Source: Emticicia agri (GTDB taxonomy: Bacteria > Bacteroidota > Bacteroidia > Cytophagales > Spirosomataceae). Taken from it: 43,480 nucleotides of DNA. Every line of letters starts with the position of its first letter. The stretch's first letter is position 1. Under the pieces are notes generated by a model. It was not told the origin of the DNA. It saw only the letters and a list, made by a program, of their open reading frames with translations, and made no database searches. This document shows positions 12,174 through 32,849 of the stretch, in pieces. The position numbers and the translations under genes are program-made. The stretch is from NCBI RefSeq assembly GCF_004168285.1, contig NZ_SEWF01000041.1, positions 1-43,480 of the forward strand, read 5' to 3'.

Positions 12174-12336
12174 TAGAGTCCATAACTATACTGCATCTGC
12201 CTGTCCTGAGTCTGTATATGGCTGTTTCAAAGGCTATCCTTCCGGTTCCTGACTATAATTAACTGAATTACCATAAAATATCGTTATCTTGCATACTTTG
12301 TAAGTGCAGCAAGAGATAATTAACAGCCTAAAGAAA

Positions 12337-12939
12337 ATGGACGAATTTCTGAAAAGTATTGAAAAGAAAATAGTAAAGTTATCGTTTAAGCAGCAGATTT
12401 TATTCGGGGTGCTTAGCTGTGAAAAATTACTGCCTAATTATCGCCAGTTCAGTAGTGCGGTAAACTGGGGGAATATAGAGATATTAGAAGAAGCCATTGT
12501 TATGATTTATCAGTATTTACAGGATATTGAGCTAAATGAAGGAGAATTAGACAGCATCTACGAAAAAATTATAGAAATAACACCTAATGTTGAGAATTTT
12601 GAGGGCGACCTGGCGGCTTATGCCCTTGATACCTGTTCGGCGGTTGCTGATGCCGTAGAGTTTCTTTTAAGCGAAGACCAGAGTTATGTGCTTAATATTG
12701 CTTCTATTGTAAGAGATACCATTGATATGTTCATACAGGAGTCGGAAGAACTGGACATTGCCGATGAAAATGCAGACCAGAAAATAGTACAACACGAATA
12801 TATGAAACGGGAGACTAAACGCCAGCACGAGATACTACGCCGATTGTTAGGCGCAGAAATAGATTTGCCTTTTATATCTGCCATGCGAGACCTGAATAAT
12901 AGTTATGGCCCGATTATTGAACTTTCGTTGGTTAGCTGA
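12337..12939 (+). CDS. DUF416 (YjaG-like) family protein
   Basis: A 200-residue all-helical protein matching the DUF416/YjaG family. The diagnostic part is QQILFGVLSCEKLLPNYRQF (cf. the CERMYPNY motif of E. coli YjaG), then W-G-N preceding a helix, and the mid-protein ALDTCSAVADAVEFLL segment that matches the IDACVALSELV region. An in-frame GTG at 12304 would add 11 residues; the ATG at 12337, preceded by AAAGAAA, seems likelier. The family's biochemical role is not established. It is about the usual family length. No partner gene is evident, and the following tail module has its own promoter. Confidence 0.82.
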   Translation: MDEFLKSIEKKIVKLSFKQQILFGVLSCEKLLPNYRQFSSAVNWGNIEILEEAIVMIYQYLQDIELNEGELDSIYEKIIEITPNVENFEGDLAAYALDTCSAVADAVEFLLSEDQSYVLNIASIVRDTIDMFIQESEELDIADENADQKIVQHEYMKRETKRQHEILRRLLGAEIDLPFISAMRDLNNSYGPIIELSLVS

Positions 12940-13139
12940 TAAATCAACAGTGGCTATACCTGTGCCGCTAAAGCTGTGATGTATGGCAAGTCTGATATGT
13001 TCTTTAACTCCTTGTGCCTCAGCAACTAAAACGATGCGTCTTGGCGGTCGTTGAGAATAATGTCTCTACAACTCTTTATAAAATAGCAAACACTTCTATC
13101 CGAAGCCCTGTACGATATCCAAAAATAAATTCCTGATTT

Positions 13140-13173
13140 TATACTTATAATATAAGTATAAATAGTATATTTG
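13140..13173 (+). promoter_or_regulatory. palindromic operator plus promoter of the tail/lysis module
   Basis: A -7 element, TATATTTG (13166-13173), is not accompanied by a TTG -33 box. In its place is a 21-bp palindrome at 13140-13160: arms TATACTTATA and TATAAGTATA around a single A, perfect in both arms. The expected start is near 13180, 13 nt ahead of the first gene. A palindrome covering -26 to -46 is where a repressor would block, or an activator recruit, polymerase. No gene for such a regulator is next to it. Confidence 0.6.
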
Positions 13174-13192
13174 TATCAAATAAAAATAAAAG

Positions 13193-13879
13193 ATGCCTGA
13201 ACAAATCTTAGATGAGTTGTCGGGCACTGAATCCACACTATCTTACCTCATTGACGGGAAAAATTTCCTGTCAGAATATGGCGTGTACGTCAGTGCCTCC
13301 GGTGGTATGCAAGATGCACCATCCCTCAAAGAACCACAAACTGTCAATTGGCCGGGTTCGCACGGAACCGTGGTTGATTTATCTGCTCCACGATACAATA
13401 ACCGGGAAATAGAATTGGAGTGTTTTATTAAAGCATCGGGCAAGATGGATTTTTTTACGAAAGTGCGGGCTTTTCAGCAAGCCTTTCAGAAGCCTGAATT
13501 GCGTAAACTCGAATTACGTATCATTGAAAATAAGCCACTGATTTACATGGTTTATTTAGCAGATAGTATAACTATTGAGAAGCAATGGCACAGCGAAGAA
13601 ATGTTTGGCACATTTACTTTAAAGCTGATAGAGCCGTCGCCAGTTAAAAGATTGCTTGTACGTACAGGAAATACCGTTAGTATTCAATTTGCCAGTGCAA
13701 ACCCGATTGATATTTATTGGGGAGATGGGCAAAAGACCCTGAATGTATTTGGTTCCGATGTAAATAAAACACACAATTACAGCATTTCGGGCACCTACTA
13801 CATTCTGCTTTGCGGAGTGATTGAAGAGATTTCTGATTTTATAGCTGCTGACACACAAACAATATGGACCAAATACTGA
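13193..13879 (+). CDS. distal tail (Dit-like) protein with PKD-like C-terminal domain
   Basis: A 228-residue phage-tail protein. The first 150 residues resemble Dit/distal tail proteins of long-tailed phages. Signs are a short N-terminal arm, a GTVVDLSAPRYNNREIELEC strand pair, the helix KMDFFTKVRAFQQAFQKP, then a KLELRIIENKPLIYMVYLAD strand and a final FTLKLIEPSPVKR. Dit forms the ring joining the tail tube to the tail-tip hub. The last 75 residues look like a PKD/Ig-type fold (ANPIDIYWGDGQKTL...NKTHNYSISGTYYILL), which may bind carbohydrate or cap the ring. It overlaps the next gene by 16 bp, as expected for a Dit/Tal pair. It is first in the operon, directly behind the promoter. Confidence 0.7.
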   Translation: MPEQILDELSGTESTLSYLIDGKNFLSEYGVYVSASGGMQDAPSLKEPQTVNWPGSHGTVVDLSAPRYNNREIELECFIKASGKMDFFTKVRAFQQAFQKPELRKLELRIIENKPLIYMVYLADSITIEKQWHSEEMFGTFTLKLIEPSPVKRLLVRTGNTVSIQFASANPIDIYWGDGQKTLNVFGSDVNKTHNYSISGTYYILLCGVIEEISDFIAADTQTIWTKY

Positions 13880-16800
13880 TATACAAACCGGATGGCGAAA
13901 GCGAGGCTATTAATAGTAATAGTCAGGTTAGTGTTATTACACAGGCTGAACACAAGAAAACCTTATTAGGAGAAGATATAATTACCATGACCGTAGAATC
14001 AGCTACTGTCAGGAATTTTGCGATTGGTGATTATATTCAGGTGTTTGGACTTCCAAAATACAAAATCAATCAATTGCCGAAAGTAACCAAAGAAAGTGAG
14101 AGAAAATATATCTATGAGCTTGTTTTTGAAGGCCTGCAATATGACATGTTGCGAGTTATTTACAGAAATACAGACATAGTTAATTTCAATAATTCGGCTG
14201 ATTTTACGCTGATAGGTACCATTGAAGTATTTCTCAACGTGTTGATTCATAACCTGAATCGGGTATTTGGCACAGATAAATGGGCTTTAGGTGATTTTCC
14301 GGAAGAGACTCAGACCAAGAATCTGCTGTTCAACAATGAGAATTGTCTCGCTGTTTTGCAACGCCTTTGCGAGGAGTACCAGTATCAGTTTGCTTGTCAG
14401 CAGACAGAAATACAAAACATTCTGCATATCCGTCAGGCAGGAACAGAACTGGAGTACAATTTTAAATACGGTCAAGGGAAAGGCTTGTATAAGCTCGACC
14501 GTGTAAATGTAGACACCAAAAATCTGGTAAACACCCTTTGGGCGTATGGGAGCAGTAAGAACCTGCCTGCTGACTATAAGGGATATTCGCCACGACTCAG
14601 GATAAGCATTGATGAAGATTTACCTCTGCTTGATAGCACTTCAAGAGGGTTATACGGGATTTTTGAAGGAAGTGTGGTTTTTGAAGATATTTATCCGCAT
14701 CGTACAGGGACAGTTTCGGTAATCAATGCTGAAAATCGTTTGCAGTTCAGCGATGCAAGTATGAATTTCGATTTGAACGCAAAGGAAGGAGATAATACTT
14801 TATATCTGCTTGCCGGAACTACAGCAAAAGTGCGTTTTCAGACAGGAAATCTGGCAGGTTATGAGTTTGAGGTATCAGATTACAATCATACTACCAAAAC
14901 CTTTACGCTTTTGGTAAATCAGGACCAGAAAGGCTTGCAATTACCCTCATCAACCGAACCTGCTTTCCAGATTGAAGTAGGGGATACTTATGTCATTTTA
15001 GATATTATGATGCCACAGGCATACATCAATGCGGCAGAAGAAGAATTATTGGTAAAGGCAACTGAGTATCTGGATAATAATTCGGTACCGACTGTGAAAT
15101 ACACGCTGGAATTAGATGAGTTTTATATCAGAGATACAGCCACAAATCTGAATGTGTTTGACGTTGGAGATTCGGTAAACATAGAAGATACAGCCTTAGG
15201 TATCAATTCCCGGATTCAGATTATTGAGTTTACAAGGGATATTTTAAGGCCCTACAAATACAGCCTTACGATTAAGGATGTGCCGCAGGTAAGTACACTC
15301 AGAACCATTATTGTGCAGAATCATTACAACCGGGATTTTCTGAAATTATTCGGATTGGACGATCCGGCAAAAGCCAAAAATGACAAAAAAAGCAGTGCCG
15401 AGATTCTCAACGAGATTCTTCCCCGTGTCAAAAAGATACTGAAAATGTTCGATATTGAAATCGGACAGCCTGACAGCGAGATTGATATAAAAGGCAAGGT
15501 AAAGATAACTACAGAGGATTTTGGTATTCAAAATCCTGGCTTGGGGAAAGATATTTTCAAAGTTGACACAGGTGGCAATACAGTTATTGGGGCTGATGAA
15601 ACTTTTACTAAAATAGTTGGAGGTTTTGGCTTAGAGAATGAAAGTAATTTTGTGGGTAATTTTTCTGTGGCTGATATTACAGCAGACCACACTTATACAT
15701 TGCCTGATTACAATGCGGTTTTAAATGACTGGGATTACTTTACTAATATTCCTGATATTTTTCCGCCATCTCCACATACGCACGCAATCAGCGATATTAC
15801 AGGGCTGCAAACTGCCTTGAATAACAAACAGCCATTAGATGCTGATTTGACGGCTATTGCTGCGTTCACCGGAACGGGATTCCCGAAACGGACAGGGACA
15901 AATACCTGGGCAATCAGTGAAGATATAAGCCTGAATACGGGGGCTAAAATCTACCTGGGCGGTGAACTATTCATTCACAATTATAACAATTTCACACCCT
16001 CTGCCAATACTTTCGTTGGGATTAATTCAGGAAACTTAGCCCTGAATATGGAGGAAAATGATGGGATTGATAATGGCATCAAAAACGGGTTGAATATGTA
16101 CGGAGGTAATACAGCTCTTGGATATTATTCAATGAATGGTCTAATTGATGGGGGGTATAGTGTCGCTATCGGGCAATCGGCTATGCGGTATGGTGAAAGT
16201 AATTATAGTACAGTTGCTGTAGGAACGCAAGCCCTGATGTATGCGAAGAATACAGATTATAATACAGCCATAGGACAAGATGCAGGGAAATTCATAGGGG
16301 GTTTGGTAGGAGGTGGAACCACCGGAACACCGAACTATGGAGGGCCTGACGACTCGAATAATACGCTAATTGGGGCAAAAGCCGGATTATATCTGAAAGG
16401 TGGAATCAATACCTATATTGGTACACATGCAGGCGAATTGAATATCGGTTCTTATAATATTGGATTAGGTTTGGAAGTATTGCAGAACAATGCAGGTTCG
16501 TATAACATTGCCATTGGCAGGCGTGCTATGCTCAACAATACAGCCAATAGCAACATTGCCCTTGGTGATTCTTCAGTATATACCAATACCTCAGGCAATG
16601 GATTGATTGGGTTGGGTGTGCAAGCATTATATGCCAACACAACCGGAAGCAGAAATCTGGCAATGGGCGTACAAGCTCTGTATGCCAATACTACTGGCTC
16701 GGACAATATCGCCATCGGCAACCAGGCTGCTTATGCTAATATCGGCGGCTCTAATGTTTTCATTGGCAGTAATGCCGCCAAGGCTACAACAGGCACAAGT

Positions 16801-19116
16801 GAAAGTATTTTCATTGGCCATAATGCAGGACTGACCGGGAATTATGGCGGTTCTAATGTAATTATCGGTCCGGGCGCAGGGAGTAATTCAAATATAACCT
16901 CCGGCATCAATAACCTTTTTCTTGGCAAGAGTGCAGGGAACTATGAGACCACAAACGTAAGTAACCGACTGAATATCGGTATGACGGGCATAGGGCCTCT
17001 TATCTCAGGCAATTTCAGCACTAACAGAGTAGGGATTAATACCCTTAGCGGCAATCTGACTCATACCTTAACTGTGAACGGATCTATCTATGCCAAGGGT
17101 ATTACGCCTTTGGTGTTAGATAGCACCATCGGGTATTTTCAAAATTCTATTGTAGCAACGATTTCGGGCAGTATGGCCGACTTATTGTTTACACCCGGGC
17201 AAGCCAGTTCAGGATATGTTTTTCAATCAAAGAATAGTGCAGGAACGGCCATCAATGCGATTGCAATTAACAGAGACGGTAATGTAGGCCTGGGAATAGG
17301 GAACGCAGTAAGGAAACTACATATCTATGATGCAAGTAATGCCTCTGCACTCGTGCAATCAGGAGCTATTGCGGCCTATCGTTTGTCAGGCACTACCCAA
17401 GGTTCTATTATCAATGAGGTTAGTAATCTGTACATTACTAATACCGCAGCGACTGGGTTCATACACTTGCAGACTAATTCCGTGAGCCGTCTGGCAATTC
17501 TGGCTGATGGGAAAATAGGTATTAATCAGCCTTCACCGACTTATCAGTTAGATGTGAATGGCACTTTCAGAGTGGCCGGAGCTTCACAGTTTGATGCGAT
17601 TGCCTCATGCCCGATTGCGCCAACTTCTGCTAATCACCTCGTGAATAAGGCGTATGTAGATAGTCTGGCTTTGGTTAAGAGAGGGGATAATGTCTATACT
17701 ATTGCTACATCGAATATCACTCTTTCAGGCTTGCAAACCATCAATGGGTATGCTGTGGGCAATGCTGAACCTGTATTGGTAGCAGGCCAAAATACACCCT
17801 CACAAAATGGGGTGTACATTGCTTCTGTGGGTGCATGGACACGTTCAACGACTGCAGATTCAGACACAGAAATCAGGGGAGCCTATCATTATATTTTGTT
17901 TGGCACTTATGCCAATTATCGTTACATCAATACCAATACCTCCGCCATCACATTGGGTAGTACTTCCATTACTTACGATGTTGATTTTGGCGCAGAAACC
18001 GACCCGGTTTTCTCAGCTTTTGCCACTGCAAACAATCTTGACCCAACACATATTGCAAACTGGAATACAGCTTATAGTTGGGATAATCACGCCACACAGG
18101 GATATGTAGTAGGCACTTCAAGAACCATCACCATTAACGGCACCAGCGGACGTGTTTCTGTTACTGGTGGTGCGCAGGATTTAGGTGGCAACCGTACATG
18201 GACGGTTGACCTGATTGCCTCCGGCGTAACTGCCGGAGATTATACTAAAGTAACGGTAGATACTTACGGACGTGTAACTGCCGGAACTAATCCAACGACT
18301 TTAGCCGGGTATGGCATAACAGATGCCATTACAGCAGTAACAGCCGCAGCAACTTATCAACCACTACTCGACGACGGTACGGGACTTGTAAAGTCAACAG
18401 CAGGGGTAATTACCTACGATAATTCGGTTTACCTGACAGAAACCTTAGCTGATAGTATCTATTTGAGACTTGACGACACAGGCGACTTTATTGACCCTTT
18501 AAATGCGGTATTACTTGAAAGTAACGTAGGAGAAAGAGGTTTTTTCTTGTATGGTATTGAAGATGATAACGCCAAACGACACAAAGAAGCCTTTTTCTTT
18601 GTCAATCCTGATGAGGGCGTTTTAGGTATCCACGCTTACAGACAGGAAGATACCGTTACCAAGACATTCGGACTTGAAATGTACAAAGACGGGTATCTGT
18701 ATCATCTGAAAGATGATTTGACCAAACACCGGATATTGACCACCAGCGACCTGAGTAATTTAACCTGGAATGGTGGACAAATTACCAACGATATTAATAT
18801 GGATTCTTATGTGAATCTGTATTGGGGCAAGGTCTCGACGTTTGATTTTGATGCACGTATCTATGGATATAAGGCACAAACTAATGGCGAAAGAGGATTA
18901 TATGTTCAAACCCATAAATTCAACATGACTGCAAGGGAAGGAATATTCTTAGGCTCAAGTAAACGCCCGGGGGGTACAGGTAACGACGATAAAGCAATAG
19001 TTTTGGATAATGTAATTATCGACCTGCAAGGGGTCAACTTATTAGTAGGTGGATATGCCCGTTTCGCTGTGAGCATTTCAGGGGATTACCATAAATTGAC
19101 TTTAGTAGTAGATTAA
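13864..19116 (+). CDS. tail-tip hub (Tal-like) protein fused to a long YadA-like beta-roll fibre
   Basis: 1750 residues with several regions. Residues 1-500 resemble the gp27/Tal hub that closes the tail tube (KYKINQLPKVTKESERKYIY, ELEYNFKYGQGKGLYKL, NVFDVGDSVNIEDTALGI). Residues about 710-1035 are some 16 repeats of the YadA/Hep-Hag head type, consensus xNIAIGxxA with 14-18 residue spacing (NIAIGRRAM, NIALGDSSV, NVFIGSNAA). Next come fibre segments (LTVNGSIYAKG, YQLDVNGTFRVAG, SANHLVNKAYVDS) and at about 1265-1350 a tail-fibre domain (LVKRGDNVYTIATSN...ANYRYINTN). The C-terminal 200 residues are unfamiliar and may be the receptor-binding tip. Chain trimerisation is expected from the beta-roll. 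In phages hub and fibre are usually separate genes; here they are one chain. Confidence 0.75.
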   Translation: MDQILIYKPDGESEAINSNSQVSVITQAEHKKTLLGEDIITMTVESATVRNFAIGDYIQVFGLPKYKINQLPKVTKESERKYIYELVFEGLQYDMLRVIYRNTDIVNFNNSADFTLIGTIEVFLNVLIHNLNRVFGTDKWALGDFPEETQTKNLLFNNENCLAVLQRLCEEYQYQFACQQTEIQNILHIRQAGTELEYNFKYGQGKGLYKLDRVNVDTKNLVNTLWAYGSSKNLPADYKGYSPRLRISIDEDLPLLDSTSRGLYGIFEGSVVFEDIYPHRTGTVSVINAENRLQFSDASMNFDLNAKEGDNTLYLLAGTTAKVRFQTGNLAGYEFEVSDYNHTTKTFTLLVNQDQKGLQLPSSTEPAFQIEVGDTYVILDIMMPQAYINAAEEELLVKATEYLDNNSVPTVKYTLELDEFYIRDTATNLNVFDVGDSVNIEDTALGINSRIQIIEFTRDILRPYKYSLTIKDVPQVSTLRTIIVQNHYNRDFLKLFGLDDPAKAKNDKKSSAEILNEILPRVKKILKMFDIEIGQPDSEIDIKGKVKITTEDFGIQNPGLGKDIFKVDTGGNTVIGADETFTKIVGGFGLENESNFVGNFSVADITADHTYTLPDYNAVLNDWDYFTNIPDIFPPSPHTHAISDITGLQTALNNKQPLDADLTAIAAFTGTGFPKRTGTNTWAISEDISLNTGAKIYLGGELFIHNYNNFTPSANTFVGINSGNLALNMEENDGIDNGIKNGLNMYGGNTALGYYSMNGLIDGGYSVAIGQSAMRYGESNYSTVAVGTQALMYAKNTDYNTAIGQDAGKFIGGLVGGGTTGTPNYGGPDDSNNTLIGAKAGLYLKGGINTYIGTHAGELNIGSYNIGLGLEVLQNNAGSYNIAIGRRAMLNNTANSNIALGDSSVYTNTSGNGLIGLGVQALYANTTGSRNLAMGVQALYANTTGSDNIAIGNQAAYANIGGSNVFIGSNAAKATTGTSESIFIGHNAGLTGNYGGSNVIIGPGAGSNSNITSGINNLFLGKSAGNYETTNVSNRLNIGMTGIGPLISGNFSTNRVGINTLSGNLTHTLTVNGSIYAKGITPLVLDSTIGYFQNSIVATISGSMADLLFTPGQASSGYVFQSKNSAGTAINAIAINRDGNVGLGIGNAVRKLHIYDASNASALVQSGAIAAYRLSGTTQGSIINEVSNLYITNTAATGFIHLQTNSVSRLAILADGKIGINQPSPTYQLDVNGTFRVAGASQFDAIASCPIAPTSANHLVNKAYVDSLALVKRGDNVYTIATSNITLSGLQTINGYAVGNAEPVLVAGQNTPSQNGVYIASVGAWTRSTTADSDTEIRGAYHYILFGTYANYRYINTNTSAITLGSTSITYDVDFGAETDPVFSAFATANNLDPTHIANWNTAYSWDNHATQGYVVGTSRTITINGTSGRVSVTGGAQDLGGNRTWTVDLIASGVTAGDYTKVTVDTYGRVTAGTNPTTLAGYGITDAITAVTAAATYQPLLDDGTGLVKSTAGVITYDNSVYLTETLADSIYLRLDDTGDFIDPLNAVLLESNVGERGFFLYGIEDDNAKRHKEAFFFVNPDEGVLGIHAYRQEDTVTKTFGLEMYKDGYLYHLKDDLTKHRILTTSDLSNLTWNGGQITNDINMDSYVNLYWGKVSTFDFDARIYGYKAQTNGERGLYVQTHKFNMTAREGIFLGSSKRPGGTGNDDKAIVLDNVIIDLQGVNLLVGGYARFAVSISGDYHKLTLVVD

Positions 19117-19143
19117 AATTGTAAAACCAAAAATAAAAACAAT

Positions 19144-19545
19144 ATGACAAATCTTGAAGCATTGGTAGTGAGCAATAATCTTGATATTCTGGCAGAAATG
19201 CTCGGCGTATCCTTGTCTTACAGTCTTGAGTTGGTTGATGAAAGTAAAAAGGCTGACTATATCAGAGAAAAACGTAATGCCATTACAGAGGTGATGAATA
19301 AAAAAGTAAAGTCTATCCAGGAATCAGAGAGCTCTGACAAGGACGATAAGATTTCAAAAGAACAGCAAGAAGCAAATGTCCTTTGGGATAGCTTCAAAAA
19401 CCAAAAGTTTGAAGGCGAGTTCTCAAAACTTGACCTGAATAGATTTCCTACTGACAGCAAATACATTGATGCCAAAAAGGACGAACAAGGCAATAGTGTT
19501 TTCAGGTCTTCTCTTACCTATTTCAGAAAAATTAATTTAATTTAA
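19144..19545 (+). CDS. small hypothetical protein of the tail module
   Basis: A 133-residue charged protein with no recognisable family. The first 30 residues form an apolar helix pair (NLEALVVSNNLDILAEMLGV). Residues 40-80 are lysine/glutamate-rich and probably coiled or unstructured, and the C-terminus contains DLNRFPTDSKYIDAKKDEQG. It sits 27 bp after the fibre gene and 2 bp before the glycosidase-like gene, so it is tightly co-transcribed with both. By position it could be a fibre-assembly chaperone or an adaptor; that is inference from gene order alone. Confidence 0.6.
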   Translation: MTNLEALVVSNNLDILAEMLGVSLSYSLELVDESKKADYIREKRNAITEVMNKKVKSIQESESSDKDDKISKEQQEANVLWDSFKNQKFEGEFSKLDLNRFPTDSKYIDAKKDEQGNSVFRSSLTYFRKINLI

Positions 19546-19547
19546 TT

Positions 19548-22037
19548 ATGCCTTATTCAAAACCCTTTTTCATGAATTTTATCCTCTCTGACGGAGAAGG
19601 AAATTATGTGGGTCTGTATCGGGTGAAAAGCAAAGATGATACAAATGGCACCTATGATACCAGATACTATTATCTCAGAACAGATGCCAGCGGTACGCAT
19701 ATTAATGTCGGCACAAACCCCGTCAGCCGTGGAAATGCCGTGAACGGGTATTTTGATGACTTGGAAACGGCAATAGATGAACTAAACTGGCCTGACGGGT
19801 ATGGGGGTGGCGATATTGATACTTTTGCCACCAGAAAGTTTATAACCTACTACCAGCAGCACGTAGTTGATACAGGAATTGAAAATACTAAAACCCGTTA
19901 TTCACAGGTATATGATTACGGCATCAGAGACTATCTGATTAAGGTAGAAATGGGGCTGATATTTCCTACCTATGCTGAGTTAGTGGCCAATGATAATTCT
20001 TCATGGGCAGACATCGATGAATTGGTAGACCATGTAATGGGTATTGCCGATGATACAACTGTATCTTTTAGAATCTGTACTGATTTGGATGATGCTATTT
20101 TTTATGGTGAAAATGGGTATTATGATTTGTGGACGCACCAGATGCAGGACGAGATGAACTACCCTTCCCGTATTCAGTATGGTAGTGGCCATGTGTCGTT
20201 ATCTTATGAAGCAGGTTTGGATAAGTGCAAGGAATTTGTAGGCAAACTGATAGCCCGTTATTGGGACAGAACAGACGGACGGGTTTTATGGGCAGCTGAC
20301 GGGATGACCGGACAGAATGAAGCGGCCTATAATTACGAAAATCAGCCTTATATCTATGAACAAGGACCGGGGGTGGTTTCGACAGAAGCAGGCTCAGGCA
20401 ATACTAACCTGATAGGCGCAGGCACTACTTTTCTGACTACATTCAATGAAAATAACCCTATTGTTATCAACGGCGAACGATTGATAGTTACTACTATTGG
20501 GTCAGATACCGAAATGGCCACAACTGCCAGTGTAGGAACTTTCACGAATCAGCCTTACAAATATTCGGGAAATACAAAAGTATTGCACCCGACTATTTAT
20601 GACTACTCGCCGCCAAGTATTGCTGCTTTCCGTGCTTTCATGGAAAATGAATATGAGACGATTGAGGAATTAAACGCCTCATGGGGTGAATCAAATGCCT
20701 CTTTTGCGGTGATTCAGCCGCCTAAATCAGGCGTCACTACTCCAAATCCTCAAACACCACCTGAACTGTTGTGTGCTGTTTTTGCCACTAATAAGGGTAA
20801 AGACTGGTGGCGATTCAATAACAGACAGCTAAAGAACTATCTATCTGACGTGCGTCAGATTATACTGGATAATTCGGAGAGCAAAGTAAAATTTGTGCTG
20901 GAATTCGGGTCTGTTACGGATATTTATTCACCGCTTCGACAGTCGCTGTTGGTGAATGAAATGGGAGGATTGGGAGGATATAGTGATATGCTGAAAGCTC
21001 AGTTAGGTATTATGAACTCGCACCCTGATTTGGCTATTACGGTAGATGTGTTCCGCTCGGTGTATGGAGGTAAGTTTGGTACAGAACTAAGCGACGACGA
21101 TGCAGCAACACAATATGGTGCAGCCAATGCCGAACAGGTAAAAGACAAACTGTTACAAATGGCATATGGCGCCATTCAGAATGGCGCTACGCATATGATG
21201 GTAATACCTAACCATAATGAGTATTACCCTACCATGTTGCAAGTAATAACGGCAATAAAGCAGTATATGGATACTTATACGAATCCGGTGCCTAATCCGG
21301 GCATTGAGTTAGAATATTCTGTAGGACAGCAATTAGAAAATCCGAATTTTCTGCTGAATGCCTGGAAAGCCGCAGGCGGGAGCAATACTACCCGAATCAA
21401 GATGATTCAGAGTTCTGATTTTGGGTTTGGGGAGAATACAAGCGGTTGTGCGTATCCGATAAGTATTTACGGGGCATTGCATACGTTCTGTCTGCATTCA
21501 CCTGCTATCAAATCTTTTGGCTATACTGATGCTGTGGCGGCAGGGAATCAGGCAGTTTTGAATAATTATAATCAGAATTATTTCAGATTCCTCTCGCCAA
21601 CTCATACAATCACTTACCCCAGTACAGGAGATTTAGCCAAGTCTAACTGGCGGATTGTGGGTAATTCGGGTACTGTGTATGTAAGTAACGTACAAAAGGC
21701 GGGTTATCGGCGTGTAGCTCCAGACCCTTTTACGGGGTATCAACCGAAAGAAAACAATAATCACCCTGATAGGCGGTATCCAGGCGTAGAAGGGGAAGAC
21801 TCTGTTTTTTATCTGCCTAAATCTGACGGGCCTTATACGATTTATATGACCAATACAGGTACGGTTAGTTTGCAGTTCCTGATAGATATATTAGACCCGG
21901 GCAATGGACAAAACTCAATCAATCTGAAAGACCAGATTATATCTGCCGCAGATGGCGAACAGTCTTATGTGTTAGATGTGTCTAACATTCCTAATACTAC
22001 GATTCCGCAGGTGAAATTGAATTGTAATAGAAATTGA
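19548..22037 (+). CDS. glycosidase-like TIM-barrel protein of the tail module (clan GH-A, GH42-like)
   Basis: 829 residues, no signal peptide. The middle part resembles a clan GH-A (beta/alpha)8 barrel of the GH42 type. Signs are TGQNEAAY near residue 255 (an NE pair where the acid/base sits), FRAFMENEYETIEELNASWG near 365-380 (cf. the YGTIEALNEAWG segment of GH42 enzymes), DWWRFNNRQLKNYL, and VLEFGS near 450 with a candidate nucleophile Glu. A small all-beta domain at about 275-345 (TNLIGAGTTFLTTFN...) interrupts the barrel. The N-terminal 100 residues and C-terminal 150 residues (beta-rich, GPYTIYMTNTGTVSLQFLI) are unfamiliar. In a tail context the likely role is cutting surface polysaccharide as a depolymerase; the protein may instead be a binding module with a decayed active site. 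The assignment is from motif memory. Confidence 0.55.
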   Translation: MPYSKPFFMNFILSDGEGNYVGLYRVKSKDDTNGTYDTRYYYLRTDASGTHINVGTNPVSRGNAVNGYFDDLETAIDELNWPDGYGGGDIDTFATRKFITYYQQHVVDTGIENTKTRYSQVYDYGIRDYLIKVEMGLIFPTYAELVANDNSSWADIDELVDHVMGIADDTTVSFRICTDLDDAIFYGENGYYDLWTHQMQDEMNYPSRIQYGSGHVSLSYEAGLDKCKEFVGKLIARYWDRTDGRVLWAADGMTGQNEAAYNYENQPYIYEQGPGVVSTEAGSGNTNLIGAGTTFLTTFNENNPIVINGERLIVTTIGSDTEMATTASVGTFTNQPYKYSGNTKVLHPTIYDYSPPSIAAFRAFMENEYETIEELNASWGESNASFAVIQPPKSGVTTPNPQTPPELLCAVFATNKGKDWWRFNNRQLKNYLSDVRQIILDNSESKVKFVLEFGSVTDIYSPLRQSLLVNEMGGLGGYSDMLKAQLGIMNSHPDLAITVDVFRSVYGGKFGTELSDDDAATQYGAANAEQVKDKLLQMAYGAIQNGATHMMVIPNHNEYYPTMLQVITAIKQYMDTYTNPVPNPGIELEYSVGQQLENPNFLLNAWKAAGGSNTTRIKMIQSSDFGFGENTSGCAYPISIYGALHTFCLHSPAIKSFGYTDAVAAGNQAVLNNYNQNYFRFLSPTHTITYPSTGDLAKSNWRIVGNSGTVYVSNVQKAGYRRVAPDPFTGYQPKENNNHPDRRYPGVEGEDSVFYLPKSDGPYTIYMTNTGTVSLQFLIDILDPGNGQNSINLKDQIISAADGEQSYVLDVSNIPNTTIPQVKLNCNRN

Positions 22038-22134
22038 TTTTTCCGACGCAATGTAATCGTCAATGTGTTCGGACTGGCAGATTTGCCACACGGTTTTGCA
22101 ATGACTAAAAAATAATTCATAAAGAAAGAATGCC

Positions 22135-22665
22135 ATGTTATTTTTAACAGCCGGACACCATAAAAAAGATGCCGGTGCTACTTACAATGGGCGAAAGGAA
22201 GCTGATGAAACCGTCCGGCTTCGGAATGCTATCGCCAGACTATTGACCGATAAAGGATTGAAAGTTTGGACAGACGCTGATGACTGGGATTTAAACCGGA
22301 CTATCAACGAAATTACCAAACGCTCGAAACCTGATGATATCATCTGCGATTTACACTTCAATGCCGGAGCAGCTACCGCCAGCGGGTGCGAGGTTTTTGT
22401 AGCTGATAATGCCAATGCTGCCGAACTGAATCTGGCAACTGAATTGGTAAACACTATTGCCTCAACCCTGCTAATCAGAAACAGGGGAGTGAAAAAAGAG
22501 CATGACAGTCAGCATAAACGCCTGGGAATGATGCGCCCTGCCGGACGAAATGTGCTGATAGAAATCTGCTTTCTCTCAAACAACTATGATAGGCAGCAGT
22601 ATGATACTTTCTTTGGCCTGTTGGCAGAGGGAATTGCCCGAGTGTTAGCTCAAAAAATAGAGTAA
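22135..22665 (+). CDS. N-acetylmuramoyl-L-alanine amidase (Amidase_3) endolysin
   Basis: A 176-residue zinc amidase that cuts the bond between muramic acid and the peptide stem of peptidoglycan. Zinc ligands are visible as His8 (TAGHHKKDAGA), Glu22 (NGRKEADE) and His74 (CDLHFNAG), with the catalytic Glu143 in NVLIEICFLSN. The domain is minimal with no signal peptide, no cell-wall binding repeat and no membrane anchor, so it would stay in the cytoplasm until a holin releases it. The holin-like gene follows after 29 bp. The start ATG at 22135 leaves a 97-bp gap after the glycosidase-like gene, the largest within the operon. Confidence 0.9.
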   Translation: MLFLTAGHHKKDAGATYNGRKEADETVRLRNAIARLLTDKGLKVWTDADDWDLNRTINEITKRSKPDDIICDLHFNAGAATASGCEVFVADNANAAELNLATELVNTIASTLLIRNRGVKKEHDSQHKRLGMMRPAGRNVLIEICFLSNNYDRQQYDTFFGLLAEGIARVLAQKIE

Positions 22666-22694
22666 AATTTCCACACAATAAAAGCGGTATCCGC

Positions 22695-23222
22695 ATGAAA
22701 ACAATGATGTTCAATTTTAAACAGCAAATCATGAATCATCCCTATATGATTTCATTTTTTGCCTTATTAGCCACTTTACTGAAGTTTGTGATAGAGTCGT
22801 GGCAGGTTGATGGTATATTATTTATCTTCCTGTTTTTGCTCATCGCCATTGATACCTATACAGGTGTACGTTTAGCCAAACAAAAGAATCAGTACAATTA
22901 TAAAGTACTGAAAGAAAAAGCTACCCGAAAGGTATTGGGCTATGTTATTTTTCTGATAGCTCTCTGGACATTTACGATGATGCTCTTCCTGATGAATATC
23001 AAAGACGGGGTGCCATTCATCAACAGTTATTATCTGAATATACCCATGATGACCACCATGCTTTTTTTTGCAGGAATCGAATTCCTGTCTATCAAAACCA
23101 ATGTTACACTCATATTTGGTATCCATACGCCTCATGCTGTAATAGATAAAGTAGAAAATTTCATCAATACAGGTGGCGCAGATGCCAAAAAATTAATAGA
23201 CACTAATTCTGAAACTACATGA
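22695..23222 (+). CDS. phage holin (holin_4-type), lysis module
   Basis: A 175-residue membrane protein with about four hydrophobic segments (near residues 16-35, 42-56, 80-102 and 110-130) and a charged C-terminal tail. The pattern ILFIFLFLLIAIDTYTGVRLAKQKN, with Asp-Thr-Tyr-Thr-Gly followed by a basic loop, is characteristic of the phage_holin_4/toxin-secretion holin family. It would form the pore that frees the amidase. The start at 22695 has other ATGs close by at 22704 and 22707, so the N-terminus is uncertain by a few residues. The 3' end overlaps the next gene by 4 bp (ATGA), which indicates translational coupling. Confidence 0.82.
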   Translation: MKTMMFNFKQQIMNHPYMISFFALLATLLKFVIESWQVDGILFIFLFLLIAIDTYTGVRLAKQKNQYNYKVLKEKATRKVLGYVIFLIALWTFTMMLFLMNIKDGVPFINSYYLNIPMMTTMLFFAGIEFLSIKTNVTLIFGIHTPHAVIDKVENFINTGGADAKKLIDTNSETT

Positions 23223-23602
23223 ACCGATTAAGCCTTATTCTGACAGGCCTTGCCCTGGCAGGCGGCATTGCCGCAACTATCTGGGTGCAGACTACATTCA
23301 GTAAATTAAAAGAGCGCAAGATACTGGTGCAGGAAAACAAACTGTTGAAAGCCGAAAGAAAAACCTTGCAGGATTCGCTACAATTGCATAAAACATGGTT
23401 GGCCAAAAGTCTGATAGATACCAAGAATGCCACCGAATTATATGCCCTCACCCAGGGTATGGCAACCTCTTTTCAGTCGGTTATTGTAGTAATGCGAGAC
23501 AGCGTCATTCAGATAAATAAAGACAGAGCTACGCTCGAAGCGAAGGTATTAGAACTCCGGAAAGACCTCGAACGAGCCAGAAAGAAACGGAAGTTTTTGT
23601 AG
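23219..23602 (+). CDS. inner-membrane spanin-like (Rz-like) protein
   Basis: 127 residues: one N-terminal membrane anchor (LSLILTGLALAGGIAATIWV) followed by a long charged helix with heptad character (ERKILVQENKLLKAERKTLQ, then RATLEAKVLELRKDLERARK). That is the topology of the i-spanin Rz, which spans the periplasm to fuse the inner and outer membranes in the last step of lysis. Position after amidase and holin supports this. I checked the other forward frames inside the gene for an embedded or overlapping lipoprotein (Rz1/o-spanin) and found none with a lipobox. It is the last gene of the module; the terminator is 87 bp downstream. Confidence 0.7.
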   Translation: MNRLSLILTGLALAGGIAATIWVQTTFSKLKERKILVQENKLLKAERKTLQDSLQLHKTWLAKSLIDTKNATELYALTQGMATSFQSVIVVMRDSVIQINKDRATLEAKVLELRKDLERARKKRKFL

Positions 23603-23688
23603 AATAGCCTCACAGGCAACCTTTTAAGGATATTTACCGTAAATAGACTGAGTAGGTACATTCTACATTTTACTTTTTGGGTTTAGCT

Positions 23689-23721
23689 AAAGAACTAATC
23701 TATTGGGTTAGTTCTTTTTTT
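23689..23721 (+). terminator. intrinsic terminator of the tail/lysis module
   Basis: A perfect 10-bp stem, AAAGAACTAA (23689-23698) with TTAGTTCTTT (23708-23717), a 9-nt loop and a T-run continuing to 23721. It lies between the last module gene and a gene of the opposite strand that ends at 23736, so it could also work in reverse (A-run on the other side). Confidence 0.85.
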
Positions 23722-24703: not shown

Positions 24704-24792
24704 TAAAAACAATTCCCGGTCAACTAACTGCGAGCAGGATGCTCGCGCCACAAGTGGAGAATTTTTATTGCCTAAAAACAATTCCCCGTCAA
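24704..24792. repeat. 20-bp direct repeat flanking a hairpin insertion at the 3' end of the VWA gene
   Basis: TAAAAACAATTCCCGGTCAA (24704-24723) and TAAAAACAATTCCCCGTCAA (24773-24792) are 19/20 identical and in the same orientation. The second copy is the actual 3' end of the VWA reading frame (TGNCF-stop); the first is a spare copy. Between them is a hairpin GCGAGC-AGGAT-GCTCGC (24730-24746) and about 30 bp more. The layout is that of a small palindromic element inserted with target duplication, leaving the gene's stop codon intact. Confidence 0.5.
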
Positions 24793-25818
24793 ACCGGTTG
24801 CATCAAATTTGGTCGTGTAGGTGCCTTTTTTGGCGTCGTAGGCTACTACAAGCACCAAACCAACTTTTCCGGCTCTTTTGGGTGAGCAGTATTCAAACAG
24901 GTAATAACTGTTGGCTTCGCCTCTTACTACCCTTGCCAGTTCGATGAATTTAGCTTCCAATTCATTTTTGTTCTGTGGGAAAACCGCCCCGTTTTTACCG
25001 ATAGTGGTCAGAACCGATTTGTCGATTTCAGTACCCAGACCAATGGTAAATAAAGAGATTTTAGAGTTGGCACCATTTACTTTATTAAGCGCAACCTGTT
25101 TCGAATAACGGGCGGCCTGGTCGGTTCCGTCGGTAAATATCACAATCGAATAGGCTGATATATAGCTTTCTTTCTGCAAATCTTTCAGTCGTTGTTCTGC
25201 TTTATCAACCGATTTGATAACTGCGCCATACAAATCAGTCGATGGGTCTTTCGAGAGACTGGCACTCAGGTTCTGGACTGCATTGGTCAGTTTGTTTTTA
25301 TCAGACGTAAAGTCAACAAGGGTATTCAGCTTATCTTCTCCATCAAACCACGCAATACTCACCAGATAAGAATCGTCGCCCGAAGTAGTGATAATATTAT
25401 TGATAAAACTGATAGTAGAGCTTTTCAACTGTGTTAAGGCCGTAGAAGTAACACTGGCACTTAAATCGAGCACTATCATGGTATTATGTCTGAATTTCTG
25501 CGGACTTGGCGAAAACTGTTTGTTGGCCTCGCTTTCCGAAATGGCATTGGCACATTCGTCGTTGGTGCCTTGTTCATATACCTTAAAGTTACCTGTAGTT
25601 AAACCTGACACCGGAAGAAAACTACTTGAATTGATATTGACTTTCAATATCATACTCAGCTTGCTGGTACCCGGCACAATTTTAGGCTCAGAAATAGCCG
25701 TAATTTTCAGGTCGTCGTAAAAAATATCGGGGCAATTGCGGTTGTTGTCTGGTTCGCAGGAGTTAAAAAGAATCGCACAGAGCATGAGTAAACCGCCAAG
25801 GAAAAACTTCTTTGTCAT
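24772..25818 (-). CDS. VWA-domain lipoprotein
   Basis: 348 residues. A lipoprotein signal peptide (MTKKFFLGGLLMLCAILFNSC) puts the lipidated cysteine at 21. A strand-rich region of about 90 residues precedes a von Willebrand A domain at about 110-290. The metal site (MIDAS) is complete in its first part as D118-L-S-A-S122, with the later Asp in FTDGTDQA; these domains bind a divalent ion and a protein ligand. The C-terminal 50 residues carry two cysteines, as does the region around residues 29 and 89, so disulfides are likely. The protein probably sits on the periplasmic or outer face of the outer membrane. There is no operon partner. Confidence 0.88.
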   Translation of the reverse strand: MTKKFFLGGLLMLCAILFNSCEPDNNRNCPDIFYDDLKITAISEPKIVPGTSKLSMILKVNINSSSFLPVSGLTTGNFKVYEQGTNDECANAISESEANKQFSPSPQKFRHNTMIVLDLSASVTSTALTQLKSSTISFINNIITTSGDDSYLVSIAWFDGEDKLNTLVDFTSDKNKLTNAVQNLSASLSKDPSTDLYGAVIKSVDKAEQRLKDLQKESYISAYSIVIFTDGTDQAARYSKQVALNKVNGANSKISLFTIGLGTEIDKSVLTTIGKNGAVFPQNKNELEAKFIELARVVRGEANSYYLFEYCSPKRAGKVGLVLVVAYDAKKGTYTTKFDATGLTGNCF

Positions 25819-26268: not shown

Positions 26269-29200
26269 TTAATTCTGACAGGTTCGTATTTCTGCTTTAA
26301 AAAGATTCTGCTGTGAGGCTTCAAAACCAGGCTTCAAGAGAATAGATTTTCCGCTTACATAATCAACTTTAGCAGGCGATGTGCCATTAGTATTGATTCT
26401 ACTGCTCGACTGGATACTTTTATTTACCTGATAAAAATGTTCGCCTCCTTGCAGATTGGTGGTCAGGTTCAGGTCATCAACAGCCACACTGATGCTCACG
26501 GTCTGGCTTCCACCATTCCGGCAAAAGGCTTCAATGGTGGTGGCAGTAGCTAAACTTACCTGTATGGTATTGCCTGACATATTGTTAGACCACACTACAT
26601 TATTACCCGGACACCCGTTGGCGGTTAGCGTAATGGGTTTATTCGGACAGGCATAGACATTGCCGGGTGCAATAGTAATGGCATAGCAATTGGCAGACTG
26701 GGTAATCTGAATGGCATTACTGGCATTGCTTGCGCAGCTATTGGTGGTGCAGGTAGCCCTGTAAGTTCCGGCGGCATTTACAGTAATCACAGACCCTGTT
26801 TGTCCGTTACTCCAGGTAACCGTTCCCGAACAATTAGATGCTGTGAGTGTAAGGGTTTTATTGGCGCAAAGCACAGTGGTAAACGAACTCAGGGTAGGAG
26901 GGTTAGGATTACTCATAACAATGCTGTTGGTCGGACAGTAAAAAGTGGGTGCATTGTAAAATTTCTGAATCCCGTTATAACCCCCTCCGACTATCATAAC
27001 CGCTTCTTCGTTTAAAGCAAAAATACTTGCATTAAAACCCGGAGATTGGGCTTCTATTGCCCATGAAATACCTCCATCGTAACTGGTCGCCAATTTCCCG
27101 CCTAATAATGCCCACCCTTTGGCTGGCGTAGCAAAATGAATCTTGCTGAAAGGAAAAGAATAATAACTGATGCGTTGCCATGAAACTCCATCATTAGTGG
27201 TTCTGAAAAGTTCATTACCAGTACCAATCCAGCCCACGTTGGCATTGAGAAAGAAAACATCGGCCATATAACTCTCTGTCATATTCTCCTGTAAAGTCCA
27301 GGTAGCACCCGAATCGTCGGAATAGTACATACGCCCTTGTTCGCCTATGAGCCAACCTTTGTTCTGCATAAAATGAATATCGGTAAGCACAACATTATCA
27401 GTAGGTAAAGGAACGACCGCCCAGGTGGTACCTCCATTAGTTGTTTTTAACAGGAGTTCTCTACTGCCTGTTACCCAACCATTATTCTGGTCTTTAAAAA
27501 ATACACTGCTGAATGTTTTAGAGTTGGGTTGCGTATATTGCTCCGTCCAGTTAAGACCTCCGTCAGATGAATAATAGATTTTTTTACTGGTTATTAACCA
27601 GACCTTATTATTGAGGTAATGAATGTCAATCAGCAAATCATTAATCAGCGGTACAGGCTGTGTAAATGTCCAGGTTCTGCCTCCGTTGTTGGTAGTGCCT
27701 ATATTAACATCGCCAAGCACTCGCCCATTGTAGGCATCACTGAAATAAACCTCCTTGTATGCTTCTACCACAGGAGGGTAGATGGCATTCCATGAGTGTC
27801 CTCCGTTATGAGTAACAATAATGGTTCCGCCCGAGCCTCCCATCATGCCGTGTTGGGCATCATAAAAATCACCGCCTAATTTATAACTCGAATTCATGGC
27901 GACTCTGCTGATTCCCCAGGTAGTTCCGCCGTCGATAGTGTTTAAAACACAGCCTGTTCCGAAAATCCATCCGGTGGTTTCATTAATAAATACTATACGG
28001 TTATAGTCTTGCCGAAAATTACTTCTGGCCGCACTATCAAGTTTCCAGGTATTACCACCATCGTTGGTTCTTACAATGGCTCCGTCTTCACCCACAATAA
28101 TCCCTTTCTGTTGGTTAAGAAACACCACATCAAAAAAACCTGAAAAAACATCAGGTGAAGTCTGGTTATGCCAACTGTTACCTCCGTCTGTGGTATTCAG
28201 AATAACCCCCAATGAACCTGTTGCCCACCCGTGGTTACTATTCACAAAAAAAACCGAAAGCAGGTGCTCTTGGCTATACGGGTCATGCGATTGCGCAAAC
28301 CAGTTCAACCCGCCATTGGTGGTTTTCATGATAGTTCTTGATGTACCTACGGCCCAACCTGTATTTTCGTCGAGAAAAAATATCTTCAATAAACTATTAA
28401 TCGAGTTATTGAGAAATATTTTCTGCCAGTGCTTACCTCCATCAGTTGTTTTAATGATATAATGGTCATGATCTTTTGAGCCCACAACAAATCCGGTTTG
28501 CTCATTCACAAATTGTATATCATCAAAACTCAGCGTTGCATCAATCAGAATATACTTCCAGTTGGTGCCGCCGTCTTCCGAATACATAATATACCCTTTT
28601 TCGCCAACTGCCCATGCCTTATTGGGTGCCGACATAGACGTGGCAAAAACAGCAAAATTGGGTACGTCAGGTGCTTGCCATTCCCAGAATTTTTCTCCTT
28701 TCAGGTAGGGAACAACTTCATACGTTCCTGTAGCTGTCGGATTAAAATCTGTGCGGTTGCCGTTATCAAACGGAACTCCATCTTTACGCCATTCAAAGCC
28801 GTAGTTAGAACCAAGCCCAGTCATTGAAAGTCTTGGGCTTGCGTTCAGGCAGGTATTGCCATTGTCGGCTATAAGTGTTCCGCTTGGGCCAATGTTTACA
28901 GTCTCGGGCTTGCTATCTATGCTCCGACAGCCATTTACTACACAGGCCGCTGTATAAGTGCCACTGCTATTAACGGTAACCGCACTCCCCGTTGCCCCAT
29001 TGCTCCAACTCACAACCCCGGTGCATCCGGTAGCAGTTAGGACTACCTGAGTAGCATTACAGGCGGCTTTTGAGACCTGCGGCGCAGCCGGACTCGGTTT
29101 AAGCACAATGGCGTTTGACGGGCAGTATCTGATAAGATTAGCCGTTATTTTCTTAATAACACCCTCTTCACCACTTACCCATCCGGTTTTGGCATCGGTA

Positions 29201-31766: not shown

Positions 31767-32849
31767 TTATTTACTCTTCGCACCATCCACAAGCTGTTGT
31801 AGTTGAGCTGTCAGCAGGGCTTCTATTTTATCCAGTCTGCTTTCTAAAGATTGGTTTTTGCCTTTCAGTGCATTATTTTCATTGCGGAGTTCTTTTACTG
31901 CTTCAATCAGGTGAGGTACTAATCCGATATAGTTGACAGATAAGAAGCCTTTTTCGTCTGTTTGTACCAATTCAGGGAAAATCTTTTGTACTTCTTGTGC
32001 TATTAAGCCTGTTTGCAGGTCTTTGCTACGGCTTTCTTCCAACCATTTGTAATGATAGCCATTCAGTTGAGCAATAGTTTGTAAGGAATTATGCAAAGGA
32101 GAAAAATCCTTTTTTAGCCTTTTATCAGACGTTTGAATCAGGTTGCCGTTAAGGTAACCATTGCCTGCACTATTTACCCAGAAACGCCAGTTATTGCCAA
32201 TCCAGATTCCGGCTTCTGTATCGTTTTTCATGCCATAAAAAGCACCGTCAGCCACACTTGCGCTATTGGCAGAATTATTCATCCAGATACCAGCCGTATT
32301 GCCTGTATGTCTTAATCTTGCTCTTCCGTTTACTTCTAAAATATTAATTGGTGCACTGATACCAATGCCTACATTGCCACTGTTTGTAATAAGGGCATGC
32401 CCGGAAGTTGATGAAAAATAACCGCCAATACCGGCATGGGTAGCAATGCCACGTACCCCGTTGCCGTAAGCTGTGGTACCTAATACGCCATAATAACTAT
32501 AACACTCACCCGAAACACCTATCCCGAACGGGCCATTGCTCAACCCATGTACCCCTTCAAACACCTGTGAAAAGCCATATACCCCAATGCCGTTATCAGC
32601 ACCCGTCCCCGAATCAGCAATGCCATACACGCCTTTTCCGAAAAATCCATAGCCTACGCCAACTACTCCACTGCCATATTTAGTGAGCGTGATACCTCTG
32701 AGTGCATCACCGTTATCACTCGTTTTTCTGTTATAGCCTATAATGACGGATTTAGTGCCTGTTTCAGAGGAGTCAATATAAGCCTCAATTTTGGTTTGAC
32801 CCCATGTGTTTAAGCTAATGAGCAAAGAGAAGAATAGGAGTTTTTTCAT
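31767..32849 (-). CDS. secreted tail-fibre-like protein with C-terminal S74 intramolecular chaperone
   Basis: 360 residues with a signal peptide (MKKLLFFSLLISLNTWGQ). The first half has glycine-rich repeats (GVYGIADSG, GVYGFSQVF, GVHGLSNG, GVLGTTAYG, GVRGIATHAG) that look like a short beta-helix stem. The strand LEVNGRARLRHTGN comes next, and the end is a Peptidase_S74 domain. The S74 signature is SDKRLKKDF near residue 240, where the Ser and Lys would form the self-cleavage dyad, followed by GYHYKWLEE, GLIAQEVQKIFPELV and FLSVNYIGLVPHLIEAVKEL. A terminal coiled coil (NNALKGKNQSLESRLDKIEA) completes it. S74 domains trimerise fibres and are then cut off. In Bacteroidota such proteins are common as secreted surface proteins, not only in phages. 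Confidence 0.85.
   Translation of the reverse strand: MKKLLFFSLLISLNTWGQTKIEAYIDSSETGTKSVIIGYNRKTSDNGDALRGITLTKYGSGVVGVGYGFFGKGVYGIADSGTGADNGIGVYGFSQVFEGVHGLSNGPFGIGVSGECYSYYGVLGTTAYGNGVRGIATHAGIGGYFSSTSGHALITNSGNVGIGISAPINILEVNGRARLRHTGNTAGIWMNNSANSASVADGAFYGMKNDTEAGIWIGNNWRFWVNSAGNGYLNGNLIQTSDKRLKKDFSPLHNSLQTIAQLNGYHYKWLEESRSKDLQTGLIAQEVQKIFPELVQTDEKGFLSVNYIGLVPHLIEAVKELRNENNALKGKNQSLESRLDKIEALLTAQLQQLVDGAKSK

Follow-up and report, generated by a model that had tools for sequence, protein, structure and literature searches.

Gene transfer agents (GTAs) are described in PMC9662315 as particles made of caudoviricete-derived proteins that encapsidate mostly random host DNA, are fully endogenised, often at multiple loci, cannot package the whole element, are mostly inherited vertically while co-diversifying with their hosts, and deliver the packaged DNA to other cells. 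According to PMC12946183 and PMC9662315, work on them covers few lineages, mostly Alphaproteobacteria, and telling them apart from defective prophages is difficult. In RcGTA of Rhodobacter capsulatus, siphophage-derived particle genes are resident at several loci under common transcriptional control, with fibre and lysis genes at loci of their own (PMC9638019, PMC9662315), and the separate loci are placed under GafA (PMC9638019). Here we describe a similarly organized system in Emticicia agri, starting from a seven-gene tail-tip and lysis cassette at positions 13193-23602 of a 43,480-nucleotide window, which is the whole of contig C41 (NZ_SEWF01000041.1) in a 6.65-Mb genome of 174 contigs. The cassette is probably the tip-lysis operon of a siphophage that has become domesticated, with its late operons now at five loci under one operator, and that acts as a GTA. 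Compared with RcGTA, the Emticicia system belongs to another phylum and another phage ancestor, and its head-tail core is itself split over operons, each with one shared palindrome. Judged by title or start of abstract, none of the open-licence papers listed by our searches describes a GTA of a Bacteroidota bacterium; prophage-driven lateral transduction has been reported in Bacteroides, and thus the phylum is already known to move host DNA in capsids.

The cassette is one of five operons in both E. agri (G000) and Emticicia sp. 21SJ11W-3 (G004; a single 5.18-Mb contig, NZ_CP092074.1), namely terS-terL, portal, a nine-gene scaffold-to-tube operon, tape measure and tip-lysis. A palindrome search of the E. 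agri genome first led to the portal gene and the capsid operon on contig C36, and homology searches of the same genome gave a total of 20 module genes, all with open frames. The terS-terL pair lies at C60 444-2460 (terminase small subunit family, 1.5e-33; terL, 520 aa, L019:444-2006, minus strand), the portal gene at C36 54858-56243 (SPP1-type portal, 1.1e-51; GP3_package, 1.9e-23), the nine genes from putative scaffold to tube chaperone at C36 11216-16631, and the tape-measure gene at C62 11897-14122 (tape-measure family, 6.5e-20). A stretch of 1420 identical bases is common to the end of C36 and the beginning of C60. Together, the operons hold the gene set of a near-complete siphophage particle: small and large terminase, portal, putative scaffold, major capsid protein (MCP), connectors, tail tube, tape measure, tip and lysis. 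The capsid protein has no Pfam match and is 73% identical to a protein of Emticicia sp. BO119 (G007) that itself matches the major-head family phrog_29 at 5.6e-36, and the tail tube matches PF25681 only at 0.0035, below the family cut-off. Scaffold, decoration and connector proteins are named by position against Porphyromonas phage005b, in whose annotation the gene at the scaffold position stays hypothetical. The E. agri decoration-protein frame (239 aa) is probably over-long at its start, and 192-193 aligned residues were used. Portal, capsid, Dit and tape-measure genes each occur at one locus genome-wide in E. agri and in 21SJ11W-3; other parts were counted within the stretches examined.

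The large terminase subunit (TerL) has no match in Pfam or in a PDB profile search, both at E 0.01. It does match 312 phage records, with 26.8-30.1% identity over 92-97% of TerL among the 15 shown, several of which are annotated as terminase, and by eye its nuclease motifs are retained. Walker A reads GTARGKD where relatives have GK[ST] and Walker B reads TEASG where relatives have DEA; what we take to be the two Mg-binding positions of these motifs look reciprocally exchanged. We considered these changes as a sign of GTA decay and dropped the idea because the same residues occur in all four of the family TerLs examined (L115, L116, L117 and L120), that is, in six of six sequences including those of E. 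agri and 21SJ11W-3.

The five operons share a palindromic operator, which stands 48 to 85 bases ahead of the first gene at every one of them in both genomes (10/10). At the cassette, this 25-base operator occupies 13138-13162 (+), with a 15-base core, ACTTATAATATAAGT, at 13143-13157, and is one of five in the genome. It is followed, 8 bases past the core, by a box, TATATTTG, at 13166-13173 (+), which we take to be a Bacteroidota-type -7 promoter element. Seven of the ten sites fit RCTTATAWTATAAGY exactly, while the E. agri terS and 21SJ11W-3 tape-measure sites are one base off and the E. agri tape-measure site two. By eye, a TATATTTG-like box lies 8 to 10 bases after the palindrome at eight sites, whereas at the two scaffold promoters the box reads TATCTTTG and is 16 bases away. 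The extended pattern RCTTAYRWTRTAAGYAYRAA, with at most one mismatch, was found at five places genome-wide in E. agri and five in 21SJ11W-3, all at these operons, and a reversed-pattern control gave none in either genome.

Across 222 genomes of the family, 35 match the long pattern. Outside the two carriers, more than two places were seen only in G091 (1/220), which has four on the contig that bears its capsid gene; all others have two or fewer. The G091 sites (52,112, 71,018, 94,274 and 108,000 on G091:C23) belong to a contiguous temperate prophage, in which they precede Dit, scaffold, a DUF4942 gene and several early genes in a row. Because this prophage bears the same operator, the operator is of phage origin, and we dropped the idea that it is unique to the dispersed system. 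When exact inverted repeats before TAnnTTTG were sought with a strict scan, the BO119 stretch showed two, one of them at the portal gene (shuffle mean 0.4); the scan is too strict, missing most known sites of E. agri and 21SJ11W-3. A gene of 68-90 aa (phrog_10608) lies divergent to the scaffold promoter in E. agri, 21SJ11W-3 and BO119 (L012:1617-1823 (+); L007:8225-8497 (-); 21SJ11W-3 C1 3,228,919-3,229,137 (+)) and is a candidate small regulator.

In 21SJ11W-3, the modules keep phage order, all on the minus strand (terS-terL, portal, scaffold-tube, tape measure, tip-lysis), over a span of 157,381 bases, about 25 kb of which is module. Ten E. agri genes between or beside modules were given to Pfam; nine fall in ordinary bacterial families, including an outer-membrane protein, a LytTR regulator, a histidine kinase, GH43 and an oxidoreductase, and one has no match. 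Of the 41 reciprocal best hits between 21SJ11W-3 and E. agri, 17 are module genes, and two of the remainder are weak and out of order. In the window, the cassette is flanked on the left by a host DUF416 gene (12304-12939, +; 3.3e-25) and on the right by a host vWA lipoprotein gene (24772-25818, -). The 21SJ11W-3 cassette stands between the same host genes, with a histidine kinase, a response regulator, an 80-aa protein and DUF416 on one side and the vWA lipoprotein on the other, and since that genome is a single contig, a contig break is excluded for the cassette.

The DUF416 and vWA genes also form the left and right edges of an empty site in two sister species. Forty genes of the 21SJ11W-3 region, from the vWA gene to past the terminase flank, match in stretches of G006 (C1 20-260 kb) or BO119 (C1 590-840 kb), their order largely kept with a few local exceptions, and none of the 22 module proteins of 21SJ11W-3 matches in these stretches (1e-3). 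The DUF416-vWA distance is about 0.56 kb in G006 and 1.1 kb in BO119, compared to 11.8 kb with the module; BO119 carries its related prophage on a different contig from the empty site. Between the portal and the capsid operon of 21SJ11W-3 we also noted a CRISPR-like array (23 repeats of about 30 bases at a spacing of 64-68 bases; L034:10873-12378, C1 ~3,240.9-3,242.4 kb), a UmuC-like C-terminal fragment (C1 3,242,404-3,242,736) and an antirepressor-like stretch (C1 ~3,244,000-3,244,600), the latter two perhaps being leftovers of the ancestral prophage. The G+C content of the terminase, portal and capsid modules is 0.43-0.47 in E. agri and 0.50-0.52 in 21SJ11W-3, compared to about 0.41 and 0.43 in their surroundings; that of the tape-measure modules is not raised.

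The cassette itself consists of seven open frames on the same strand with gaps of -16, 27, 2, 97, 29 and -4 bases. It begins with a Dit-like distal tail protein (13193-13879, +; 228 aa; PF05709, 1.5e-8; phrog_14220, 2.9e-69), 67% identical to the 21SJ11W-3 copy, followed by a tail hub fused to a long repetitive fibre (13864-19116, +; 1750 aa; PF06605, 3.6e-10; phrog_19846, 6.5e-142), which has 46% identity to its counterpart across residues 1-630. A small protein (19144-19545, +; 133 aa; weak matches only; 31-33% identity to 21SJ11W-3) precedes a GH42-like protein (19548-22037, +; 829 aa; GH42-like match, 3.6e-7) with a 28% relative in the BO119 prophage and no counterpart in 21SJ11W-3 by BLAST, and outside the selection comparison; it is perhaps a virion-associated glycan-active or adhesion protein. 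The lysis genes encode an endolysin-type N-acetylmuramoyl-L-alanine amidase (22135-22665, +; 176 aa; Amidase_3, 3.5e-22; 68% to 21SJ11W-3), a phage holin (22695-23222, +; 175 aa; PF05105, 4.6e-8; 73%) and a spanin-like protein (23219-23602, +; 127 aa; 62%). As family matches of the last are all sub-threshold, its label rests on position and on an N-terminal hydrophobic stretch seen by eye. A terminator-like stem-loop of 13 pairs with a T-run (23689-23717, +) closes the operon and is distinctive solely by its length and place, because the region holds 11 terminator-like sites against a shuffle mean of 7.9. A sigma-70 scan was uninformative (28 found, shuffle mean 30.7). Near but outside the module, the window also encodes a protein with a Peptidase_S74 chaperone domain (31767-32849) and one with ten PSII_BNR stretches (26269-30480).

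A first-pass annotation of the window had described a palindrome, seven intact and closely spaced genes and a terminator, and all of these are borne out. Its labels of Dit, hub-fibre, glycosidase-like protein, amidase and holin agree with family matches, and spanin-like holds by position only. It had also seen no tube, tape-measure, portal or terminase genes upstream; in agreement, none of the 18 window proteins scanned with Pfam matches these families, and the preceding gene is indeed DUF416. Among the origins that it offered, a domesticated device with tube genes elsewhere proved right in essence and too modest in extent, as capsid, packaging, tube and tape-measure genes all lie elsewhere in the genome under the same operator, its satellite option gained no support, and a remnant is less likely (below).

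Among the closest sequenced phages, Porphyromonas phage005b runs terS-terL-portal...MCP-connectors-tube-TMP-Dit-hub-lysis, and Porphyromonas phage005 and Riemerella RAP44-like siphophages have MCPs 38 and 33% identical and Dit proteins 43 and 31% identical to those found here. Unlike the dispersed system, these phages are compact (48.7 and 49.3 kb), and phage005b has an annotated integrase, a minor capsid protein and a TerL without BLAST similarity. More similar is the BO119 prophage (G007:C24), with MCP 73%, portal 68% and Dit 63% identical. This prophage is contiguous, and besides its portal, head, major capsid and tape-measure genes it includes relatives of five of the seven cassette genes (Dit, hub, GH-like, holin and spanin-like); it differs from the dispersed system in its contiguity, early genes, minor head protein and a TerL without BLAST similarity, and the operator was not found at the prophage. 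Its tape-measure gene lies on the strand opposite to its neighbours, and its early region holds a reverse transcriptase gene (L007:15351-20000 (-), L021:10290-11255 (+)). The prophage of G091, from another genus of the family, has the same operator, one mismatch from the long pattern, before its Dit and scaffold operons; unlike the system here, it is contiguous and temperate, with integrase, DnaB and S24 repressor, and its MCP is only 25% identical.

Dit, portal and tape measure occur in the same three of 11 genus genomes (E. agri, 21SJ11W-3 and BO119), of which two carry the dispersed form; G001, G002, G008 and G010 in this sample are 81-94% complete. Capsid protein matches were found in 18 of 222 family genomes, at 73-100% in these three and at 24-34% in the other 15. 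Within 20 kb around 14 of the 15 distant capsid loci, a portal, terminase or tape-measure relative was seen in 13 of 14, and L123 has capsid-operon genes only; at L115 and L117 the packaging genes and the capsid operon are oppositely oriented. A genome collection search returned two matching records, both Emticicia, and among viral contigs 14 loci matched, the best at 73%. When the 220 proteins of three contiguous prophages (BO119, G091 and G196) were compared with 200 kb of 21SJ11W-3 and four E. agri contigs, 83 matches fell inside modules and eight outside, the latter being UmuC-like (3), antirepressor-like (2), a small gene next to the scaffold promoter (2) and one further match. No integrase or DnaB helicase relative was found in these 200 kb and four contigs, to which the search was confined.

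A match to rpoB was obtained in 10 genomes (all but G010); in the resulting tree, 21SJ11W-3, G006, E. agri and BO119 form one clade (100/99), within which support is weaker for E. agri with BO119 (93/94) and for these with G006 (88/90). Between E. agri and 21SJ11W-3, pooled identity at 4-fold sites is 0.455 of 1056 sites for 14 module genes and 0.429 of 1736 sites for 14 host genes, both values near saturation, and median protein identity is 0.747 for modules and 0.767 for host genes; hub, tape measure, small protein, holin, spanin-like protein and the fast host gene DUF416 were left out of this count. As module and host divergence are about equal, inheritance of the five modules from a common ancestor, with later loss in G006 and BO119, fits, and recent transfer of modules between the two carriers is unsupported, though the values are near saturation. 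We lean towards the entry of host DNA into one prophage over separate settlement of the modules because these share order and orientation. Losing five modules twice with host genes kept is a real oddity, for which recombination with empty-site DNA is one possible route. The other Emticicia clade was unusable as an outgroup for the host region, since matches to the response-regulator marker there are only 41-45% identical.

The modules are under purifying selection as judged from substitution ratios. NG86 dN/dS is 0.029-0.179 in 15 of the 19 module genes compared between E. agri and 21SJ11W-3, the tape measure, hub, small protein and amidase giving no value because of saturated synonymous sites; YN00 gave 0.074 to 0.225 for eight of the 19. 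Three of seven host genes yielded ratios, 0.059 to 0.067, and four were saturated. All of these ratios are rough since dS is mostly above 1. Among the best-conserved parts are the terminases (79 and 86%), portal (80%) and capsid protein (93%), and the most variable are the hub-fibre (34%) and the small protein (33%). Thus, packaging of DNA probably still matters to the system, given how well the packaging proteins are conserved.

Set against the six features of PMC9662315, the system shows two in its sequence, and on these we call it GTA-like. Caudoviricete-derived particle proteins are recognized at the level of genes, as terS, portal, tape measure, Dit, endolysin and holin match phage families and MCP and tube match the BO119 prophage, whose MCP matches a major-head family. 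An endogenised multi-locus genome is seen in the five loci, whose host neighbours agree between the two species. As for whole-element packaging, the 157-kb span of 21SJ11W-3 is about three times the 48.7-kb genome of the nearest sequenced phage relative, so by length the element would probably not fit whole into its own particle; as an ordinary siphophage head would be too small for 157 kb, the particle should not propagate itself. Vertical inheritance would fit the roughly equal module and host divergence and the same sites in the two carriers, a pair too small for a congruence test, but two sister species nested with one of them are without the dispersed form. We propose that a palindrome-binding regulator would switch on the five operons jointly in some cells, that capsids would assemble from the module products and terminase would fill them with chromosomal DNA, and that holin, amidase and spanin-like protein would lyse the producer cell. 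The hub-fibre and GH-like protein would then attach the particle to kin, which would receive the delivered DNA.

Several observations weigh against this reading. The RCTTAYRWTRTAAGYAYRAA pattern was derived from the ten sites themselves, and the bare core ACTTATAATATAAGT, with at most one mismatch, gives six matches at five places in E. agri, compared to seven for its reversed control; one of these places (C1:126492) lies away from the phage operons, and the core does not pick up the tape-measure site. No regulator was identified, nor does a recognised regulator gene follow any of the five operator sites. The TerL Walker residues are unusual, though its four family relatives carry the same, the E. 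agri tape measure has 741 aa compared to 1466 and 1563 aa, and no relative of the BO119 minor head protein was found in the whole E. agri and 21SJ11W-3 genomes (E 0.1). Sister species G006 lacks the system and BO119 lacks its dispersed form, so that the system is dispensable.

Some of these points would suit an old prophage, split by host DNA and now decaying without function, whose operators are leftovers. The patchy distribution, lost minor head protein, short tape measure and phage leftovers between the 21SJ11W-3 modules all speak for it; we nevertheless consider it unlikely, because neutral decay over such time should have broken frames, and all 20 E. agri frames are open, dN/dS is far under 1 at high synonymous divergence and the operator is retained at every operon. 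The same ratios and kept operators disfavour the simple prophage remnant of the first-pass annotation. It is quite unlikely that the domesticated particle has another job, such as killing or lysis-release, with DNA transfer not the point: intact tip and lysis genes and the marked variation of hub-fibre and small protein relative to capsid are as expected of a targeting device, but terminases, portal and capsid are among the best-conserved parts, which is hard to explain without DNA packaging. Tailocins, which are without capsid and packaging genes, likewise make domesticated use of phage parts and do not fit here, where terminase, portal and capsid genes stand under the same operator.

Nor does the system resemble a temperate prophage, contiguous with integrase and replication genes, as it occupies five loci and early-gene relatives are only leftovers in the linked DNA searched. 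A phage or satellite that is still infectious or helper-dependent, exchanging module products in trans with another prophage as donor or recipient, seems very improbable to us. Cross-regulation is conceivable, given that the related temperate G091 prophage has the same operator, but E. agri has a single portal, capsid, Sipho_tail and matching tape-measure locus, no integrase or helicase relative occurs in the linked DNA, and modules spread over 157 kb in 21SJ11W-3 can hardly be mobilised jointly. An integrase and dependence on a helper mark phage satellites, and those of the PICI type use phage parts parasitically; here, the set encodes its own particle. Accordingly, the orphan, satellite-like tail-tip donor once suggested for the cassette was rejected when the same operator proved to precede portal, capsid, terminase and tape-measure genes as well. 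That the scattering is an assembly artefact has next to no credibility: E. agri is in 174 contigs, but in 21SJ11W-3 the five loci stand apart within one contig and are flanked by the same host genes, and two sister assemblies keep host genes in largely the same order without modules. Thus, an assembly break is rejected, and the full prophage broken by an assembly join against which the first-pass annotation had cautioned was not found, the cassette standing alone in the single-contig genome. It had cautioned likewise about relatives in which the genes follow a complete tail operon; the BO119 prophage is such a relative for five of the seven, and shows ancestry rather than the state in E. agri.

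A GTA therefore remains our preferred reading, and a fuller version of it is possible, though we would not count on it: a working Bacteroidota GTA from a siphophage that had an operator-promoter for each late operon and was scattered by host DNA. Since each operon was already autonomous, host DNA could have accumulated between them until the virus spanned 157 kb, leaving the 15-base operator as the sole remaining bond among the scattered modules. The five modules may be lost and regained singly at empty sites, by homologous recombination via their own particles.

Overall, the operator common to all operons, the nearly complete set of genes, the phage order kept across host DNA and the empty sister sites help to separate a GTA from a defective prophage by sequence alone. 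Prophage finders would miss dispersed agents because no single locus resembles a prophage, and others could be found by searching for unlinked phage operons that are preceded by copies of one operator. In Emticicia, the operator predicts a master regulator, and the existence of carrier and non-carrier sister species would make the function of the system directly testable.

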